From assembly GCF_008369165.1 (NCBI RefSeq), contig NZ_VOBA01000001.1, forward strand, positions 1,233,630 through 1,297,629: DNA of 64,000 nt, in the 5' to 3' direction. A model generated the notes under the pieces. It was not told the DNA's origin. It saw only the letters and a list, made by a program, of their open reading frames with translations, and did not search any database. A program made the position numbers and the translations under genes. This document shows, piece by piece, positions 25,159-49,992 of the stretch (the first letter of the stretch is position 1; every line of letters starts with the position of its first letter). This stretch comes from Dietzia sp. ANT_WB102. GTDB lineage: Bacteria; Actinomycetota; Actinomycetes; Mycobacteriales; Mycobacteriaceae.

Positions 25159-26613
25159 TCAGGGTAGGCCGGACTTCCCACCGGGGGAGGCGGGTTCGTC
25201 GAGGAGGTAGGGCGAGAGTGAGGACCGGTGCGCGTCCACCCGGAGTGCGTGGTTGAGCGGCGGGAAGGCCCGCTGCGGGCAGGCCGGGCGATCGCACATG
25301 CGGCAACCGGAGCCGATCTTGGTGGCGGCGTCGACGTCGTCGAGGTCCAGTCCCTGCGCGTACACGGTCCGGTGGGCGTGGCGGGACTCGCAGCCGAGGC
25401 CGATAGCGAACGTCTTACGTGGCTGGCCGAAGCGCATCGGCCGGGTGGTGACGGTCCGCGAGACCCACAGGTGGAGGCGACCGTCGGGCATCTGCGCGAC
25501 CTGCCGCATGATCTTGCCCGGGAACGAGAACGACTCGTAGATGTTCCACAGGGGGCACGTACCGCCGGAGGTGGTGAAGTGGAACCCGGACGCGGACTGG
25601 CGCTTGGACATGTTTCCGGCGCGGTCCACGCGGACGAAGCTGAACGGCACCCCCGACGCGCCCGGTCGCTGGAGGGTCGACAGGCGGTGGCAGACGGTCT
25701 CGTAGCCGGTGGCGTGGAAGGCCATGAGCCGCTCGACGTCGTAGCGGAAGTCCTCGGCGGTGTCGAGGAACCGCTGGTAGGGCATGAGCACGGCGGCGGC
25801 GAAGTAGCTGGCCATGCCGCGCAGGGCCAGGGCGACGGCGGCGGGGGAGGTGAACGAGCCCTCGTCCACGAGACTGTCGAGTAGGTCGCGGTGTTCGAGG
25901 AAGGCCAGCTCGGAGGCCACGCGGAACGCCTGCTGTCCGGGCGTGAGATGGGCGGACAGGTCGAGGCGGCGGTCCTCGGTGGAGAAGCGGTGCCACAGCC
26001 CGTCGGGCAGGTCGACGCGGCGGGCGATGCGGACACCGTGGGCTTCGGCGAGGCGGTGTTCGAGTTCGGCGCGCACGTCGCCGCGGTTGAGCCGGATGCG
26101 GGTGGTGAGGTCCTCGGCGGCGGTGTCCAGGGAGTCGATGTAGTTCTGCCGTTGGTAGAAGTAGTCGCGTACCTCTTCGTGCGGCATGGACAGTACCGAG
26201 CGGTCGACCGTGGTCTCGGGGACGTTGCGGGTTTCGGTGAGGGCAGCGAGCAGGTCGGCGGAGTTCCGGTAGCGCTGGTGCAGGAGCATGAACGCGCGGG
26301 CGAGGGAGGGGTGTGCGCGCACGAGGTCGACGACCTCGGAGGCGGGCACCTCGGCGGAGAGCTGTGTGTCGGTGAGGGCTTCCGTGACCGCTGCGATGAG
26401 CCGGGTGTCGGAGTCGGAGGCGAAGAACGTGGAGTCGACGCCGTAGATCTCGGAGATTTTCACCAGGACCCGGGAGGTGACGGGGCGGGTGTCCTTCTCG
26501 AGTTGGTTGAGGTACGACGACGACAAGCCGAGCGATTGCGCGAAGGCGGCCTGGGTCAGGCCGTGCTCCTCGCGCAATCGACGCAGTCGCGCCCCCATAT
26601 GTGAGGCTGTCAT
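25159..26613 (-). CDS. ramB: RamB-type regulator of acetate metabolism (XRE/ScfR family)
   Basis: A 484-residue transcription factor. The N-terminal XRE helix-turn-helix (RLRRLREEHGLTQAAFAQSL, then GLSSSYLNQLEKDTRPV) is followed by a long ligand-binding domain typical of short-chain acyl regulators. Near the C-terminus is a four-Cys pattern, C-x29-C-x2-C-x4-C (GSGCRMCDRPACPQR), that could bind metal. It is divergent from aceA, which RamB represses in Corynebacterium and mycobacteria. A RamB-type box lies between them. ATG 26613 is preferred: GGGGGGAAAG precedes it; the longer frame crosses the operator region. Confidence 0.92.
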   Translation of the reverse strand: MTASHMGARLRRLREEHGLTQAAFAQSLGLSSSYLNQLEKDTRPVTSRVLVKISEIYGVDSTFFASDSDTRLIAAVTEALTDTQLSAEVPASEVVDLVRAHPSLARAFMLLHQRYRNSADLLAALTETRNVPETTVDRSVLSMPHEEVRDYFYQRQNYIDSLDTAAEDLTTRIRLNRGDVRAELEHRLAEAHGVRIARRVDLPDGLWHRFSTEDRRLDLSAHLTPGQQAFRVASELAFLEHRDLLDSLVDEGSFTSPAAVALALRGMASYFAAAVLMPYQRFLDTAEDFRYDVERLMAFHATGYETVCHRLSTLQRPGASGVPFSFVRVDRAGNMSKRQSASGFHFTTSGGTCPLWNIYESFSFPGKIMRQVAQMPDGRLHLWVSRTVTTRPMRFGQPRKTFAIGLGCESRHAHRTVYAQGLDLDDVDAATKIGSGCRMCDRPACPQRAFPPLNHALRVDAHRSSLSPYLLDEPASPGGKSGLP

Positions 26614-26656
26614 CGGCTTTCCCCCCTGAGTCCGTGGCGTGCCCCACAATCTTCGC

Positions 26657-26668
26657 AAACTTTGCAAA
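26657..26668. promoter_or_regulatory. RamB binding box between ramB and aceA
   Basis: AAACTTTGCAAA matches the known RamB core ((A/G)AACTTTGCAAA). It lies 44 bases before ramB and 139 before aceA, so it could serve both autoregulation and aceA control. Confidence 0.75.
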
Positions 26669-26807
26669 GAAGGGAAAGAAACTCGCCATGTTCGCACTTG
26701 TCGCAGGTAGACGCGTTGCCCGTCGTGTGGCATCCTGAAGCGGGTAAGGGGCCGTAACTCGCAAGAGTGCGAATCCGGACCCGCCCCCGAGACAGAAAAG
26801 AGACGCG

Positions 26808-28097
26808 ATGTCGAACGTCGGCAAGGCACGTACCGCTGAAGAGATCCAGCAGGACTGGGACACCAACCCCCGTTGGAAGGGCATCACCCGCAACTACACG
26901 GCCGAGCAGGTCGCGCAGCTGCAGGGCACCGTCGTCGAGGAGCACACCCTCGCCCGTCGTGGCGCGGAGATCCTCTGGGACAAGGTCAACAACAAGGACT
27001 TCGTCAACTCCCTCGGCGCCCTGACGGGCAACCAGGCCGTCCAGCAGATCCGGGCCGGCCTCGAGGCCGTCTACCTCTCCGGCTGGCAGGTCGCCGGCGA
27101 CGCCAACCTCTCGGGCCACACCTACCCGGACCAGTCGCTGTACCCGGCCAACTCGGTCCCGACCGTCGTCCGCCGCATCAACAACGCACTGCTGCGCGCC
27201 GACGAGATCGCCCGCATCGAGGGTGACACCTCTGTCGAGAACTGGCTCGCCCCGATCGTGGCCGACGCCGAGGCCGGCTTCGGTGGCGCCCTGAACGCCT
27301 ACGAGCTGCAGAAGGCCATGATCGCCGCGGGCGCCGCCGGCGTGCACTGGGAGGATCAGCTCGCGTCGGAGAAGAAGTGCGGCCACCTCGGTGGCAAGGT
27401 GCTCATCCCGACCAACCAGCACATCCGCACCCTGACCTCGGCCCGCCTGGCGTCCGACGTCGCGAACGTGCCGTCGGTCATCATCGCGCGTACCGACGCC
27501 GAGGCCGCCACCCTCATCACCTCCGATGTCGACGAGCGTGACCGCCCGTTCATCACCGGTGAGCGCACCGCCGAGGGCTTTTACAACGTCAAGAACGGCA
27601 TCGAGCCCTGCATCGAGCGCGCCAAGGCCTACGCTCCGTACGCCGACCTCATCTGGATGGAGACCGGTACCCCGGATCTCGAGTACGCCAAGCAGTTCGC
27701 CGAGGCCGTCAAGGCCGAGTACCCGGACCAGCTCCTGGCCTACAACTGCTCGCCCTCCTTCAACTGGAAGGCGAACCTGGACGACGACACCATCGCCAAG
27801 TTCCAGAAGGAGCTCGGCGCGATGGGCTTCAAGTTCCAGTTCATCACCCTGGCCGGCTTCCACTCGCTCAACTACGGCATGTTCGATCTGGCCTACGGCT
27901 ACGCCCGCAACCAGATGAGCGCGTTCGTCGACCTGCAGGAGCGCGAGTTCAAGGCTGCCGAGGAGCGTGGCTTCACCGCCGTCAAGCACCAGCGCGAGGT
28001 TGGCGCCGGCTACTTCGACCTCATCGCCACCACGGTCGACCCCAACACGTCCACCGCGGCGCTGAAGGGCTCCACCGAGGAGGGTCAGTTCCACTGA
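26808..28097 (+). CDS. aceA: Isocitrate lyase
   Basis: A 429-residue glyoxylate-shunt enzyme that splits isocitrate into succinate and glyoxylate. The active-site motif KKCGHLGGK lies around residue 189, with [12 protein letters not shown] for Mg binding and YNCSPSFNW for substrate. Length and sequence match mycobacterial Icl1 (428 residues). It allows growth on acetate and fatty acids. The ATG at 26808 follows AAAAGAGACGCG. It is divergent from ramB and followed by a hairpin and fadB2. Confidence 0.97.
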
Positions 28098-28143: not shown

Positions 28144-28189
28144 CACCGGGGGCCGCGGCCGTCTCGACGAGGCGGCCCGGCCCCCGGTG
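28144..28189 (+). terminator. Hairpin between aceA and fadB2
   Basis: A 12-bp stem CACCGGGGGCCG / CGGCCCCCGGTG with an internal smaller stem. It may end or attenuate aceA transcription before fadB2. Confidence 0.6.
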
Positions 28190-28234
28190 GTGTCTGGCAC
28201 CCCACAGATCCCCCTCGAGAAGGACCCAGCGCAG

Positions 28235-29152
28235 ATGAACAGCTCCCGCGACGCCACCGATCCGGTACGGATCACCCGCGTCGGCGTGGTGGGCGCCGGG
28301 CAGATGGGCTCCGGTATCGCCGAAGTGTGCGCCCGCGCCCACGTGGATGTCCTCGTCTGGGAGGCGAACCGGGAGCTGACCATCGCCGGGCGCAACCGCA
28401 TCCTCGAGTCCCTCGACAGGGGAGTGTCCTCCGGAAAGATCACCGAACGTGAACGTGAGCAGGCCGCGCTACGCCTGCGTTTCACCACCGACCTCGGTGA
28501 TTTCGCCGACCGTCAGTTGGTGATCGAGGCGATCGTCGAGGACGAGGATGCCAAGATCGCGGTGTTCCGCGAACTCGACGAGGTCGTCACCGACCCGGAC
28601 GCCGTGCTGGCCTCCAACACCTCTTCTATCCCCATCATGAAGCTCGGCACCTGCACCGTCAGGCCCGAGCGCGTGATCGGCATGCACTTCTTCAACCCGG
28701 TCCCCGTGCTCCCGCTGGTCGAACTGGTGAGCACCCTGGAGACCGGCGCCGCGATCCGTGAGCGGGCGCAGGCGTTCGCCGAACAGGTCCTCGGCAAACA
28801 GGTCGTCCACTCCGCCGACCGCTCCGGGGCCGTCGTCAACGCCCTGCTCGTGCCGTACCTGCTCTCCGCGATCCGCATGGCCGAGTCCGGGTTCGCCACC
28901 CCAGAGGACATCGACAAGGCCATGGTCCTGGGCTGCGCACACCCGATGGGTCCGCTCGCCCTCGCCGACCTCGTCGGGCTGGACACCATCAAGGCGATCG
29001 CCGACTCGATGTACTCGGAATTCAAGGAGCCGCTGTACTCGCCGCCCCCGCTGCTCCTGCGAATGGTCGAGGCGGGCAGGCTCGGCACGAAAACCGACCA
29101 CGGCTTCTACCGCTATGACGCGCCGCGGGCGATGGCACGCGCCGCCCGCTGA
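28235..29152 (+). CDS. fadB2: 3-hydroxybutyryl-CoA dehydrogenase FadB2
   Basis: A 305-residue NAD(P)-dependent enzyme oxidising 3-hydroxyacyl-CoA to 3-oxoacyl-CoA. The Rossmann motif is VGVVGAGQMGSGIAEV, followed by LASNTSSIPI, the catalytic His in GMHFFNPVPVLPLVELV, and a C-terminal helical domain (NALLVPYLLSAIRMAESGFA). It follows aceA as in M. tuberculosis (Rv0467-Rv0468), linking beta-oxidation or butyryl-CoA turnover to the glyoxylate shunt. ATG 28235 has GAAGGAC upstream; an in-frame GTG at 28187 would lie inside the preceding hairpin. Confidence 0.92.
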   Translation: MNSSRDATDPVRITRVGVVGAGQMGSGIAEVCARAHVDVLVWEANRELTIAGRNRILESLDRGVSSGKITEREREQAALRLRFTTDLGDFADRQLVIEAIVEDEDAKIAVFRELDEVVTDPDAVLASNTSSIPIMKLGTCTVRPERVIGMHFFNPVPVLPLVELVSTLETGAAIRERAQAFAEQVLGKQVVHSADRSGAVVNALLVPYLLSAIRMAESGFATPEDIDKAMVLGCAHPMGPLALADLVGLDTIKAIADSMYSEFKEPLYSPPPLLLRMVEAGRLGTKTDHGFYRYDAPRAMARAAR

Positions 29153-29156
29153 GATC

Positions 29157-31547
29157 ATGTCGTCGTCGTCGTCGTCGCCGCCGCCGTCGTCACCTCGCCC
29201 GCCGCTTCCGCACCTGGAACCCGCACGCGCCTCGTCGGTCCTCGGCTACCCGCGCATCGGACCGCGACGCGAGCTCAAACGAGCCCTCGAACGGTACTGG
29301 CACGGTGACGGCACCCGGGCCGAGCTGCTCGCCACCGGCCGTCGCCTCCGCGACGCCACCTGGCACGACTTGCGCGCCAAGGGGCTGACCCAGATCCCCG
29401 GAAACACATTCTCCTTCTACGATCACATCCTCGACGACGCCCTGCTCATGGGTGCGATCCCCGCGCGGTTCCACGAACTCACCCGTGACCTGAGCCCCGT
29501 CGACACCGTGTTCGCGCTCGCCCGCGGCCGCGCCGACGTCTCCCCCCTCGAGCTGGTCCCGCTCCAGGGCACCTCCTACCTCTACCGCCAGCCCGAGTTC
29601 GACGACGCGTCCGAGCTGGGCCTGCGGCCGGACCAGCTTCTCGCGGAGGTGGCGCGGGCGCGCGAGCAGGGATTCGAGATCCGTCCCGTCGTCACCGGCC
29701 CGGTCTCGCTACTGCTGCTGAGCAAGGCCGCGGCCACCGCCGCCCCGGGCTTCCGGCCGATCGACCTGCTCGACCGACTGCTCGCCGAGTACGAGGCGCT
29801 GCTGACCGTGCTCGCCGACGCCGGCGTGACGTGCGTGCAGTTCAACGAGCCGTGCATGACGATGGAACGCACGCCCGACGAGATCGGGGCGTTGCGCCGC
29901 GCCTACGACCGGCTGGCGGCGGCGGCGACGCGGCCGCGGATCCTCGTGGCGGGGGAGTACGGCGACCTCGGCGATGCGCTGCCGGCCCTGGCGGCCACCG
30001 GGATCGAGGCGATCGGCTTGGACCTGGTGCACGGGTGGCGGTCGGCGGCCAACCTCGCGGACGTGCCGGGGCTGCGCGGCAAGCGCCTGTACGCCGGTGT
30101 CGTGGACGGCCAGAACGTATGGCGCACAGACAAGTTCGCCGCACTGGACTACCTGCGCGAGCTGAGGACCGTGTTCGATGACGTGGTGGTGTCGACCTCG
30201 TGCACGCTGCTGCACGTGCCGTACGACGTAGTGGCCGAGCCCGACCTGCCCGAGGAGCTCGCGGACTCGCTGGCGTTCGCGGAGCAGAAGGTCGCCGAGG
30301 TGGTGTCGCTGGCGCACGGTCTCGTCGACGGAGTCTCGCCGCGCTGGCGCCGGCTACCAGAACTGCCCAGTGCGCGCCGCGAGGACGTGCGGGCGCGGAC
30401 CGCCCGGATCGACGACAACGACAAGGTCCGCGCACCGTACTCCGAGCGGGCCGCCCGGCAGGCCGAGCGGCTCGGTCTTCCCACCCTGCCCACCGCGACC
30501 CTCGGCTCGTTCCCGCAGACCGTGCAGATTCGGCGCGCCCGCAAGGACTTGGCGGACGGGCGGATCGACTACGCAAAGTATTGCGACTACCTGCGCGCCG
30601 AGATCGCCTCGGTGATCCGCCTGCAGGAGGACATCGGTCTGGACGTCCTGGTGCACGGCGAGGTCGAGCGCAACGACATGGTGCAGTATTTCGCCGAACT
30701 GCTCGACGGGTTCGCGGCCACGCGCAGCGGCTGGGTTCAGTCCTACGGTTCCCGCTGCGTGCGACCGCCCATCCTGTATGGCGACGTGGCCCGGCCCGCC
30801 CCGATGACCGTGGAGTGGACGGGGTACGCGCAGTCGCTGACCGACCGCCCGGTCAAGGGGATGGTCACCGGACCGGTCACCATGCTGGCCCGGTCGTTCT
30901 GCCGCACCGACCTGGCGCTCCCCGAGGTCGCCGCACAACTGGCGCTGGTGGTGCGCGACGAGGTGGCGGACCTGGAGGCGGCGGGGACGGCGATCATCCA
31001 GATCGACGAACCCGCCATCCGGGAACTCCTGCCGCGCCGCGGCGCGGACCGGCGCGCCTACCTCGACTGGGCCGTGGGTACCTTCCTGCTCGCCTCTGCC
31101 GGGGCCCGCCCGGACACGCAGATCCACACCCACATGACGTACTCGTCGCTGCAGGTGATGCAGGAGGCGATCGAGGAGCTCGACGCCGACGTCACAGCGA
31201 TCGTCGCCACGCGGTCGATCGAGTGGGTGCTCGACGCGCTCACCGGCCACACCCTGACCCGGCAGGTCGCACCCGGGGTGTACGAGTCGCGGTCCGGGTT
31301 CGTGCCCGACATCGACTTACTCCACGAGCGACTGCTCACAGCGGTGGACGCGGTCGGGGTGGAGCGCCTGTGGGCGGTACCCGACGGAGGGCTCAAGAGC
31401 CGCTACACCTGGCAATTGGAGCCGAGCCTGCGCAATCTGGTCACCGCCGCGCGGCGGATCCGACGGGCGGTTGCCCCGGACCGGCGCGGTTCTAATAAGA
31501 TGGGGGGCGAGCAAGTCCCAGGCCACGGGCCCGGGATCGGTAGTTGA
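29157..31547 (+). CDS. MetE-like cobalamin-independent methionine synthase homologue lacking its zinc ligands
   Basis: A 796-residue protein homologous to MetE along its whole length: SVLGYPRIGPRRELK at the start, GEVERNDMVQYFAELLDGF and GWVQSYGSRCVRPP, KGMVTGPVTML and IIQIDEPAI in the catalytic half. The residues that bind catalytic zinc in E. coli MetE are mostly gone: His659 remains, but the partner Cys is Thr661 (HTHMTY), the Glu is Val683 (AIVATRS) and the second Cys is Gly744 (PDGGLKSR). The His of the YDIHSP motif is Arg712. Methyl transfer to homocysteine seems unlikely. ATG 29157, four bases after fadB2, gives a Ser/Pro-rich 28-residue leader from a TCG repeat. No better start exists. 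Confidence 0.85.
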   Translation: MSSSSSSPPPSSPRPPLPHLEPARASSVLGYPRIGPRRELKRALERYWHGDGTRAELLATGRRLRDATWHDLRAKGLTQIPGNTFSFYDHILDDALLMGAIPARFHELTRDLSPVDTVFALARGRADVSPLELVPLQGTSYLYRQPEFDDASELGLRPDQLLAEVARAREQGFEIRPVVTGPVSLLLLSKAAATAAPGFRPIDLLDRLLAEYEALLTVLADAGVTCVQFNEPCMTMERTPDEIGALRRAYDRLAAAATRPRILVAGEYGDLGDALPALAATGIEAIGLDLVHGWRSAANLADVPGLRGKRLYAGVVDGQNVWRTDKFAALDYLRELRTVFDDVVVSTSCTLLHVPYDVVAEPDLPEELADSLAFAEQKVAEVVSLAHGLVDGVSPRWRRLPELPSARREDVRARTARIDDNDKVRAPYSERAARQAERLGLPTLPTATLGSFPQTVQIRRARKDLADGRIDYAKYCDYLRAEIASVIRLQEDIGLDVLVHGEVERNDMVQYFAELLDGFAATRSGWVQSYGSRCVRPPILYGDVARPAPMTVEWTGYAQSLTDRPVKGMVTGPVTMLARSFCRTDLALPEVAAQLALVVRDEVADLEAAGTAIIQIDEPAIRELLPRRGADRRAYLDWAVGTFLLASAGARPDTQIHTHMTYSSLQVMQEAIEELDADVTAIVATRSIEWVLDALTGHTLTRQVAPGVYESRSGFVPDIDLLHERLLTAVDAVGVERLWAVPDGGLKSRYTWQLEPSLRNLVTAARRIRRAVAPDRRGSNKMGGEQVPGHGPGIGS

Positions 31548-33908: not shown

Positions 33909-35129
33909 ATGACTGACAAGAAGACCACGTCCAAGAAGACGACGTCCAAGAAGACCACCGCCGAGGCCGCAGAGCAGAAGGCCAAGGGCGAGGCTGTGAA
34001 GGCGCAGGCCCTCGAGGGTCCGCTCGGCCAGGCCATCGCCGCCGTTCGCACTCCGGTCTACGCCTACGTGGGGGTCAACGACCTCGCGATCCAGGCCGTC
34101 TCCGGGATGGTCGCGGACCTGCGCCGCCGCGCCGAGGAGGCCGTCACTGACGCGCAGTCCAAGGTCAGCGAGCGCGTCACCGAGGCGCAGAACCGGATCA
34201 CCGAGCGCGTGGCCGAAGCGCAAAACCGCGTCACCGAGGTGCAGAACCGCGTGAACGAGGTCCCCGAGCGCGTCCAGGCCCTGCCCGCCGAGGTCGAGGA
34301 GCTCGTCAACCGCTTCCGCCCAGAGGAGCTGCGCAAGGTCGCCGACGCGTACGTCCAGGTTGCGGCCGGCATCTACGGCGGGCTCGCGGCCCGCGGTGAG
34401 GATGTCGTGAGCCGGCTCCGCGAGGAGAACCCGCAGCTCGAGGCCGGCTTGGCCCGCGTCAACGAGCAGGTCGCCCGCGCCGCCGGTGCCGTCGAGGAGC
34501 AGGTCGAGCTGGGCGAGGAGGCCCTCGGCACCGTCGCCCGCCAGACCCGCACTATTGGTGTGAAGGCCGCCGGTCGCGTCTCCAAGAGTGCCCGCCAGGC
34601 GGCCGAGGCCGCCGGTGACGTCGCCGAGTCGGCGGCGGAGCGTGTCGACGAGGTGGCTGACAGGGTCGACACGACCGCGATCAAGGCTGCTGTCCGCGTC
34701 GACGAGGCTGCGGGCAAGGCCGCCGACCGCGTCGACGAGGCCGCCTCCGCGGTGTCCGCCGAGGTTGCGCGCGGCACCGCCGAGGTCGAGGCCCGCACGG
34801 CTCCGACCAAGAAGGCGCCGGCGAGGAAGGCTGCCGCCAAGAAGGCTCCGGCTAAGCAGGCGCCCGCCAAGAAGGCCCCCGCCAAGTCGACGACGACCAC
34901 CGAGGCCACGACGTCAACCGCCGCCAAGCCGACCGCCGCCAAGCCGACTGCAAACAAGCCGACTGCAAACAAGCCGGCCGCGACCAAGCCGGCTTCCGGT
35001 AAGGCCGAGTCGAGCACGCCGGCCGGAGGCGACTCGGACGCCCCGTCGCCGATGGAGCTGGCGTACAACGATCCCGCGCTGACCACCGCGGACACCCCGC
35101 TGCCCCCCGCGGGCACGGACCGCATCTGA
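33909..35129 (+). CDS. hbhA: HbhA-like heparin-binding / histone-like protein with extended Lys/Ala/Pro tail
   Basis: A 406-residue protein, twice the length of mycobacterial HbhA (about 199). A Lys-rich start (TDKKTTSKKTTSKKTT) precedes a long coiled-coil region with repeated TEAQNRITERV-type heptads (about residues 75 to 125) and VDEAAGKAADRVDEAA repeats (230 to 285). The C-terminal third is a basic PAKKAPAKK repeat with TAAKPTAAKPTANKP tracts, typical of heparin- or DNA-binding tails. Surface adhesion, lipid-body binding or nucleoid binding are all described for relatives. It has no signal peptide. XRE regulator upstream, strong terminator downstream. Confidence 0.82.
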   Translation: MTDKKTTSKKTTSKKTTAEAAEQKAKGEAVKAQALEGPLGQAIAAVRTPVYAYVGVNDLAIQAVSGMVADLRRRAEEAVTDAQSKVSERVTEAQNRITERVAEAQNRVTEVQNRVNEVPERVQALPAEVEELVNRFRPEELRKVADAYVQVAAGIYGGLAARGEDVVSRLREENPQLEAGLARVNEQVARAAGAVEEQVELGEEALGTVARQTRTIGVKAAGRVSKSARQAAEAAGDVAESAAERVDEVADRVDTTAIKAAVRVDEAAGKAADRVDEAASAVSAEVARGTAEVEARTAPTKKAPARKAAAKKAPAKQAPAKKAPAKSTTTTEATTSTAAKPTAAKPTANKPTANKPAATKPASGKAESSTPAGGDSDAPSPMELAYNDPALTTADTPLPPAGTDRI

Positions 35130-48681: not shown

Positions 48682-49992
48682 GTGACCGTATCCGACCTCG
48701 ACTCCCTCGCCGGGCATCCGCTGCCCCGGCGCATCGCCGTGTTGTCGTTCCACACGTCGCCGCTGGCGCAGCCGGGCACGGGTGACGCGGGCGGGCTCAA
48801 CGTGTACGTCCTGCAGACTGCACGCCGACTGGCCCGCCGCGGTGTGGAGGTCGAGATCTTCACCCGCGCCACCCACTCGTCGCAGCCGCCGGTCGAGCAG
48901 GCGGGTGACGGCGTGCTGGTCCGCAACATCGTGGCGGGGCCCTTCGAGGGCCTGCGCAAGGAGGACCTGCCGACGCAGTTGTGCCCGTTCGTGGCGGGCG
49001 TGATGCGGGCGGAGGCGGGTCACGCACCCGGCTACTACGACCTCATCCACTCGCACTATTGGCTCTCCGGCCAGGCGGGGCTGGTGGCCTCCGAGCACTG
49101 GGGCGTGCCGCTGGTGCACACCGCGCACACCCTGGCGGAGGTGAAGAATGCGGTCCTCGCGGCCGGGGACACCCCCGAGCCGGAGTCCCGGCGCATCGGG
49201 GAACAGCAGATCGTGGATGCCGCGCACCGCCTCGTCGTCAACACCACCGGGGAGCGGGACGAACTCGTCGGGTTCTACGACGCGGACCCCGCCGATATCG
49301 ACGTCGTCTCGCCGGGGGCCGACCTCGAGCAGTACACGCCCGGTACACAGCGGGGCACCGAACGGGCCCGCCGCGCGCTCGGCTTGGCGCAGCGCGCCGA
49401 GGTGATCGCGTTCGTCGGCCGGATCCAGCCGCTCAAGGCCCCCGACGTGATCGTCCGTGCGCTCGCCGAGATCGTGCGCACCCAGCCGCACCGCGACGTG
49501 CGCCTGATGGTCGTGGGCGGGCCGAGCGGGTCGGGGATGGATCGGCCGAGCTCGCTGATGGATCTGGCCGAGGAGCTGGGTGTCGCCGACCGCGTGTGTT
49601 TCCTCGCGCCGCGGCCGCCGTCGGAGTTGGTGGACGTCTACCGCGCCGCCGACATCGTGGCTGTGCCGTCGTACTCGGAGTCGTTCGGTTTGGTGGCGCT
49701 CGAGGCACAGGCGTGCGGTACCCCCGTGGTCGCTGCCGCGGTGGGCGGGTTGCCCACCGCCGTCGCCGACGGCCGCACGGGGATCACCGTGGACGGGCAC
49801 GATCCGCGTGAATGGGCCCGGGTGTTGACGGGGCTGTTGGACGACGACGAACTGCGACTGTCGATGTCGCGGGCCGCCCCGGTGCACGCCTCCGGGTTTT
49901 CCTGGGATTCCACGGCCGACGGACTGCTGTCCTCGTATGCGCGCACAATGGCGGCGTATCGGGCCCGGCGTTCGGAGGCTACTGCGTCCTGA
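48682..49992 (+). CDS. mshA: D-inositol-3-phosphate glycosyltransferase (mycothiol synthesis)
   Basis: A 436-residue GT4-family retaining glycosyltransferase that transfers GlcNAc from UDP-GlcNAc to 1L-myo-inositol 1-phosphate, the first step of mycothiol formation. N-terminal [18 protein letters not shown] and [12 protein letters not shown]; the C-terminal donor site shows [12 protein letters not shown] and the E-x7-E motif [19 protein letters not shown]. The GTG at 48682 is the last start before homology. Counterpart of M. tuberculosis Rv0486, followed as there by a YbjN protein. Confidence 0.95.

Follow-up and report, generated by a model that had tools for sequence, protein, structure and literature searches.

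A window of 64,000 nucleotides from the genome of Dietzia sp. ANT_WB102 (genome size 3.28 Mb) carries on its forward strand a full-length homologue of the methionine synthase MetE in which three of the four zinc ligands have been replaced. Judged from its sequence relatives, this zinc-less protein is not a single-genome oddity but an old, conserved branch found across many actinobacteria. Our reading, held with slightly better than even confidence, is that it represents an old neofunctionalised and zinc-free paralogue of MetE that has probably remained an enzyme, though not a methionine synthase of the known zinc-dependent type. Its function would be another one-carbon or amino-acid job, probably that of an amino-acid/folate enzyme. 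We consider it an enzyme because its pocket has been kept, its site appears to be rebuilt, the constraint on it is strong and its reported abundance is high. The gene is the following:

29157..31547, + strand: zinc-less MetE-like gene, with Meth_synt_1 at residues 26-339 and Meth_synt_2 at residues 444-766 of the product

The frame opens with an ATG and runs for 796 amino acids with no internal stops, so that the gene is intact, as the original prediction had claimed. Its claim of an alignment with MetE over the full length also holds, since the alignment to the E. coli K-12 MetE sequence, from which all E. coli numbering used here derives, agrees with the detection by Pfam of both MetE domains at full length. 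The matches of the protein in the PDB comprise 11 distinct sequences, ten of them full-length MetE and one a short homologue, and its nearest named relatives come from two Dietzia records, at 79 and 89% identity. The protein passes the NCBIfam model NF003556 (881.5 bits, cut-off 541) and does not reach the MetE equivalog TIGR01371 (807.4 against 929.95 bits, about 122 short).

The residues of the active site were read in an alignment of 142 rows, made of 56 distinct zinc-less rows and 86 comparison rows that keep the ligand set His-Cys-Glu-Cys (HCEC). Left out of this alignment were duplicates, the window gene fetched a second time, matches that covered fewer than 650 residues of the query, and proteins truncated to less than 650 residues at a frame end (locus L151 among them). 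The two groups were split on the four ligand residues themselves, and the contrast between them at HCEC is therefore by construction. The four substitutions given in the original prediction (Cys643 to Thr661, Glu665 to Val683, Cys726 to Gly744 and His694 to Arg712) proved right in residue and coordinate, and they recur with little variation in the relatives:

30891..30893, + strand: Arg579 codon at Trp561; R 52, L 2, F 2 (n=56)
31131..31133, + strand: His659 codon, equivalent to E. coli His641 and the sole zinc ligand kept; 56/56 zinc-less rows
31137..31139, + strand: Thr661 codon at zinc ligand Cys643; T 25, G 14, S 11, N 3, E 2, P 1 (n=56)
31203..31205, + strand: Val683 codon at zinc ligand Glu665; V 53, I 3 (n=56)
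31290..31292, + strand: Arg712 codon at His694, within YESRS, which replaces YDIHS; R 55, H 1 (n=56)
31386..31388, + strand: Gly744 codon at zinc ligand Cys726; G 55, F 1 (n=56)

No zinc-less row has a Cys at position 643 (0/56). We take His694 to be the catalytic His and proton donor of MetE, and Trp561 the residue that stacks on the pterin. The change of Trp561 to Arg579, as well as that of Lys117 to Pro135 in the window protein, comes in addition to those of the original prediction. His694, Trp561 and Lys117, none of which was used for the split, are invariant in all 86 HCEC rows. Moreover, new near-invariant residues appear in the zinc-less rows, namely YESRS in place of YDIHS, Trp690 and the series Trp752-Gln753-Leu754. 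In the catalytic domain of these rows there is no invariant Cys, and the invariant His residues are 500, 657 and 659. Without an invariant Cys in this domain, a replacement metal site based on Cys was rejected, whereas one formed by His659 plus carboxylates may exist.

The amino-acid pocket presents a different picture. The homocysteine contacts of MetE are given as Ser433, Glu484 and Asp599 in the available part of Price et al. 2021 (PMC7857596), and each one is conserved throughout the zinc-less rows:

30507..30509, + strand: Ser451 codon, equivalent to homocysteine-binding Ser433; kept in 56/56
30660..30662, + strand: Glu502 codon, equivalent to homocysteine-binding Glu484; kept in 56/56
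31005..31007, + strand: Asp617 codon, equivalent to homocysteine-binding Asp599; kept in 56/56

The original prediction, which from the loss of the zinc site and of the catalytic His had proposed either a pseudoenzyme or a new methyl-transfer chemistry, stands as far as these losses go; the intact amino-acid triad, the loss of Trp561 and the old, family-wide clade described below had no place in it. As to folate, the contacts of MetE are presumably Arg17-Lys20, Lys117, Arg515, Trp561 and Glu605. Arg17-Glu18-Leu19 and Arg515 occur in 56/56 zinc-less rows, Lys20 in 54/56 and Glu605 in 52/56; the position of Lys117 holds Lys or Arg in 38 of the 56, and Trp561 is kept in none. Altogether, the residues describe a protein with a retained amino-acid pocket and a partly remade folate pocket, in which zinc-thiolate and acid catalysis are predicted to be lost.

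By identity, the zinc-less form was found in 44 of the 101 genomes searched, 40 of which had their residues read. The 44 comprise 21 of 23 Dietzia genomes (two with a fragment at a contig end) and 23 genomes from 20 further genera, so that the search found it in 21 of the 31 family genera covered. A wider draw from the family gave 179 of 401 genomes with a match within the zinc-less score range, a hand tally of best E-values (1.1e-276 or better in the strong group, 1.7e-224 or worse in the rest) in which residues were read for the fetched loci only. A further partial match at 57-59%, known by identity alone, occurs in two genomes (G018:C339 and G035:C17). A quick maximum-likelihood tree, built from 41 canonical rows and 28 of the 56 zinc-less ones, places all of its zinc-less rows on one side of a single branch, with a value of 100 in the Shimodaira-Hasegawa-like approximate likelihood ratio test (SH-aLRT) and a stem of 0.84 changes per column; the branches inside the clade are shorter than this long stem. 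The ratio of nonsynonymous to synonymous changes (dN/dS) was 0.07-0.24 in ten pairs, and the genes are under purifying selection. Out of a survey of 394 genomes of the class, the best 30 matches were fetched: HCEC is present in each of the 21 best matches outside the family (L191-L211) and in the five canonical-type family loci (L212-L216) read alongside. From the matches in other families of the order in the 101-genome search, G074 (L211) alone was read. On these sequences, the zinc-less clade appears in a single GTDB family, which includes Dietzia and Nocardia (N. farcinica), and which we judge to include Rhodococcus as well, partly from synteny with strain IGTS8; more distant zinc-less forms may exist.

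The original prediction had suggested a search of the same genome for other methionine synthases, and these are present. A MetH with all five expected Pfam domains is encoded (L143:7157-10744), together with MetF and a short MetE-like protein that we assign to MesD because MesX adjoins it (the pair at L142:9944-11994, - strand). With MetH and MesD/MesX in the genome, the cell should be able to make methionine independently of the window protein. A match to the MetH activation domain was found in 42 of the 44 zinc-less genomes, and in the remaining two (G028 and G057) there is an additional MetE at 48% identity, canonical by its residues in G028. A role as sole methionine synthase was thus rejected, both for this genome and for the 44 zinc-less genomes among the 101. 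Cobalamin riboswitches were detected at three of the four canonical metE loci tested (Rhodococcus-like L179, L182 and L184) and, at the gathering threshold, at 0 of 16 zinc-less loci.

The original prediction rightly placed the gene in an aceA-fadB2 block; its start is 4 bp past the fadB2 stop:

25159..26829, - strand: RamB-like regulator, divergent to aceA, with ScfRs C-terminal, IrrE-like and helix-turn-helix domains (coordinates of the longest frame; the true start is probably further in)
26808..28097, + strand: aceA, isocitrate lyase (NF011645, 774 bits)
28187..29152, + strand: fadB2, 3-hydroxybutyryl-CoA dehydrogenase, directly upstream with a 4 bp gap

The arrangement of aceA and fadB2 upstream on the same strand was found in 74 of 75 zinc-less loci, a few of them from genomes fetched twice; the remaining locus, L019, starts at a contig end. 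In several Dietzia loci aceA or fadB2 was missed by gene calling and recovered by tblastn. Neither gene was found near canonical metE in the 10 canonical family loci. The family of the RamB-like regulator was called in 22 of the 28 zinc-less loci of 20 kb, and no other neighbour family beyond aceA and fadB2 exceeded 18. Three canonical loci (L144, L145 and L149) share this regulator family together with three further genes, which in L149 (9983-17444) are prpD, prpB and prpC of the methylcitrate cycle. At least there, the regulator and the prp genes put the two paralogues in parallel places, the canonical one next to a methylisocitrate lyase and the zinc-less one next to an isocitrate lyase.

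Between the fadB2 stop and the aligned start of the zinc-less gene lie 4-82 bp in most Dietzia (154 bp in one, with no sensible value for two) and 6-380 bp in other genera. In 13 non-Dietzia sequences (L175, L172, L177, L023, L161, L158, L024, L154, L025, L027, L026, L157 and L029) this gap contains a 20-pair hairpin, 14 of whose pairs show compensatory changes; it lies roughly 30-70 bases ahead of the start codon and has a covariation score of 0.506 against 0.198 in shuffles. It could be an attenuator or a processing element; it is missing in L166 and thus not essential, and is missing in the window too. A scan of the window between 26300 and 32000 for promoters and terminators gave nothing exceeding shuffles. 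On the other side of the gene, a zinc dehydrogenase resembling aldehyde reductases lies downstream in 9 of the 28 zinc-less 20-kb loci (L119-L123, L125, L128, L133 and L135), directly so in five; the one at L219:9791-10867 (- strand), below the cut-off of NF047908, is 36 bases from the zinc-less gene in genome G141. Farther along the window, a gene at 33909-35129 (+ strand), behind DUF445 and helix-turn-helix genes, has a weak apolipoprotein-like match below cut-off, and its position resembles what we take to be that of mycobacterial hbhA. The mycothiol glycosyltransferase gene mshA (TIGR03449) is found at 48730-49950 (+ strand), some 17 kb from the zinc-less gene.

A possible physiological context comes from Rhodococcus qingshengii IGTS8. 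According to the available text of PMC8557817, a protein named MetE (peg5907) was 190-273 times more abundant in this strain on glucose when the sulfur source was dibenzothiophene instead of sulfate; it ranked in the top ten of the sulfur proteome by abundance, and its sequence contains 2 Cys and 7 Met. The same source gives the numbering 5938 for AtsA1, 5939 for TauD, 5940 for a ROK regulator and 5948 for MshA, which leaves peg5907 at 31 gene numbers from AtsA1 and 41 from MshA. Of ten Rhodococcus-like genomes, seven encode a zinc-less copy with 2 Cys, two a copy with 1 Cys and one a copy with 3 Cys, whereas canonical MetE copies of such genomes have 4 Cys in 8/8. Moreover, G141 has a ROK-TauD-sulfatase group at 1.241-1.246 Mb (its sulfatase scoring below the choline-sulfatase cut-off), MshA at 1.234 Mb and the zinc-less gene at 1.273 Mb, so that 27 kb separate the latter from the group and 37 kb from MshA. 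The group and MshA are about 690 kb from the canonical gene, which sits at 1.927 Mb. Gene calling in this genome counts 26 and 34 steps against the published number differences of 31 and 41. From Cys count and synteny in relatives, peg5907 is most likely the zinc-less protein, and in Rhodococcus this protein would belong to the sulfur-starvation response.

How such an active site might work can be proposed only in outline. Without zinc there would be no thiol activation, and without His694 no protonation of the leaving folate. The zinc-less protein would still bind an amino acid, and probably also a polyglutamyl folate, and the new arginines Arg579 and Arg712 would remake the site for a one-carbon reaction needing neither zinc-thiolate activation nor an acid His. 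A specific guess, weakly supported, is the transfer of a methyl group from an S-methylated, sulfonium-like amino acid to tetrahydrofolate, chosen because a sulfonium-to-tetrahydrofolate transfer needs neither thiol activation nor His694. In its full form, the proposal of a zinc-free MetE-fold enzyme that swaps methyl groups of folate with an S-methylated (sulfonium) amino acid, or with a similar partner other than a free thiol, and that serves sulfur starvation and C2 growth in the Rhodococcus-Nocardia-Dietzia group, is in our opinion quite unlikely. We know of no methyl-folate reaction of this kind for the MetE fold.

Several points weigh against a zinc-free paralogue with a new enzymatic job. 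The sulfonium substrate is a guess that leaves the link with aceA and fadB2 unexplained, and the proposed activity and ligands are predictions drawn from sequence. A Lys117 position that is basic in just 38 of the 56 rows and Pro in the window protein, plus the missing Trp561, makes folate binding uncertain. The gene is dispensable, since a zinc-less match is missing in 2 of the 23 Dietzia genomes (G004 and G016). The identity of peg5907 is drawn from relatives and not from the own sequence of IGTS8, and with 7-8 Met in either form the Met count cannot tell the two apart. The Dietzia zinc-less forms carry 3-8 Cys, so low sulfur content is no general trait, and the explanation of the Cys loss by a sulfur-poor protein is weak. 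Finally, isocitrate lyase goes unmentioned in the available main text on the IGTS8 sulfur response (PMC8557817).

Among the alternatives, the one that survives best, possible but rather unlikely, is a pseudoenzyme: a MetE fold that would bind methionine or homocysteine, and perhaps folate, without doing chemistry, and would act as a sensor, a store or the partner of an enzyme. The loss of the known catalytic elements next to an intact amino-acid pocket would fit such a protein, as would a long stem followed by shorter branches within the clade. However, the near-invariant new residues around the old active site look more like a rebuilt site, and no partner is obvious, the RamB-like regulator being the top neighbour beyond aceA and fadB2. 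The very high abundance reported for sulfur starvation also speaks against it, provided that peg5907 is the zinc-less protein.

We regard as improbable that the protein is still a methionine synthase, with homocysteine activated in a zinc-free manner or by another metal on His657/His659 and carboxylates. The largely kept amino-acid triad, RELK, Arg515 and Glu605 are consistent with this, together with the universal His641. In addition, the IGTS8 authors take the induced protein as methionine synthase, and the methyl-folate pool of that strain, higher in early log phase, dropped during growth (available text of PMC8557817). Nevertheless, the catalytic domain has no invariant Cys and only three invariant His, both His694 and Trp561 have been lost, the score falls under the MetE equivalog cut-off, and the 44 zinc-less genomes checked have MetH or a second MetE. 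Finally, a sequencing error, which the original prediction had named as one of its refuting cases, or a gene decaying under relaxed selection, for which the lost residues themselves speak and nothing further, has a negligible probability and is refuted by identical losses in 56 distinct sequences, matches in 21 genera and dN/dS of at most 0.24 in ten pairs.

The zinc-free paralogue that we favour is best delimited by comparison with known systems. It resembles MetE (TIGR01371, PF08267 plus PF01717; PDB 1u1h, 4ztx and 3ppf) in its full length and both domains, in the homocysteine triad and in most folate contacts, and the window protein is about 41-55% identical to the canonical members compared; it differs in the replacement of 3/4 zinc ligands, His694 and Trp561, in the equivalog score of the window protein and in the place of the gene after aceA-fadB2. 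As far as sequence tells, the domains and the homocysteine residues fit MetE, but the equivalog score, the zinc ligands and His694 set the window protein apart from MetE in the enzyme sense. It is likewise distinct from the core methionine synthases MesA-MesD, as the N-terminal folate domain is present and an HCEC-type zinc site absent. MesD is also a MetE-superfamily protein, and the MesD/MesX pair lies elsewhere in the same genome (L142); it keeps HCEC (by eye in L142), has no folate domain and needs MesX (available part of PMC7857596), whereas the window protein has the folate domain and no adjoining MesX. The closest parallel is found in the MesB-like proteins of Chloroflexales, also MetE-superfamily members without the zinc ligands and with another function proposed; these are core proteins lacking the folate domain, with FSHG, YCDQ or YREQ and the His lost too, according to the available part of PMC7857596, in contrast to the window protein, which keeps His641 and the folate domain. 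By its residue series His-[T/G/S/N]-[V/I]-Arg-Gly, its YESRS motif, its place after aceA-fadB2 and its common origin, the window protein is a member of the proposed zinc-less MetE clade. The IGTS8 protein peg5907, most likely an orthologue by Cys count and synteny, differs in having been published as a working methionine synthase (available text of PMC8557817). We did not meet a full-length MetE with a folate domain and without zinc ligands in the available texts on MetE zinc and residues, the nearest being PMC7857596; metE and metH are listed in the accessible part of PMC5218467, and MetE/MetH are named in passing in that of PMC9426449.

These results bear on how such genes are named. The window protein passes NF003556, a model NCBI uses for naming methionine synthases, and the same model was matched by 21 of 21 zinc-less members scanned, so that such proteins can receive a MetE annotation. 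At least one published conclusion, which assigns methionine synthesis in the sulfur-starved, biodesulfurising strain IGTS8 to MetE, was probably drawn from a zinc-less protein. As a pseudoenzyme, the zinc-less protein would be abundant and widely retained; as an enzyme, it would add a new reaction of folates or amino acids to a well-studied fold.

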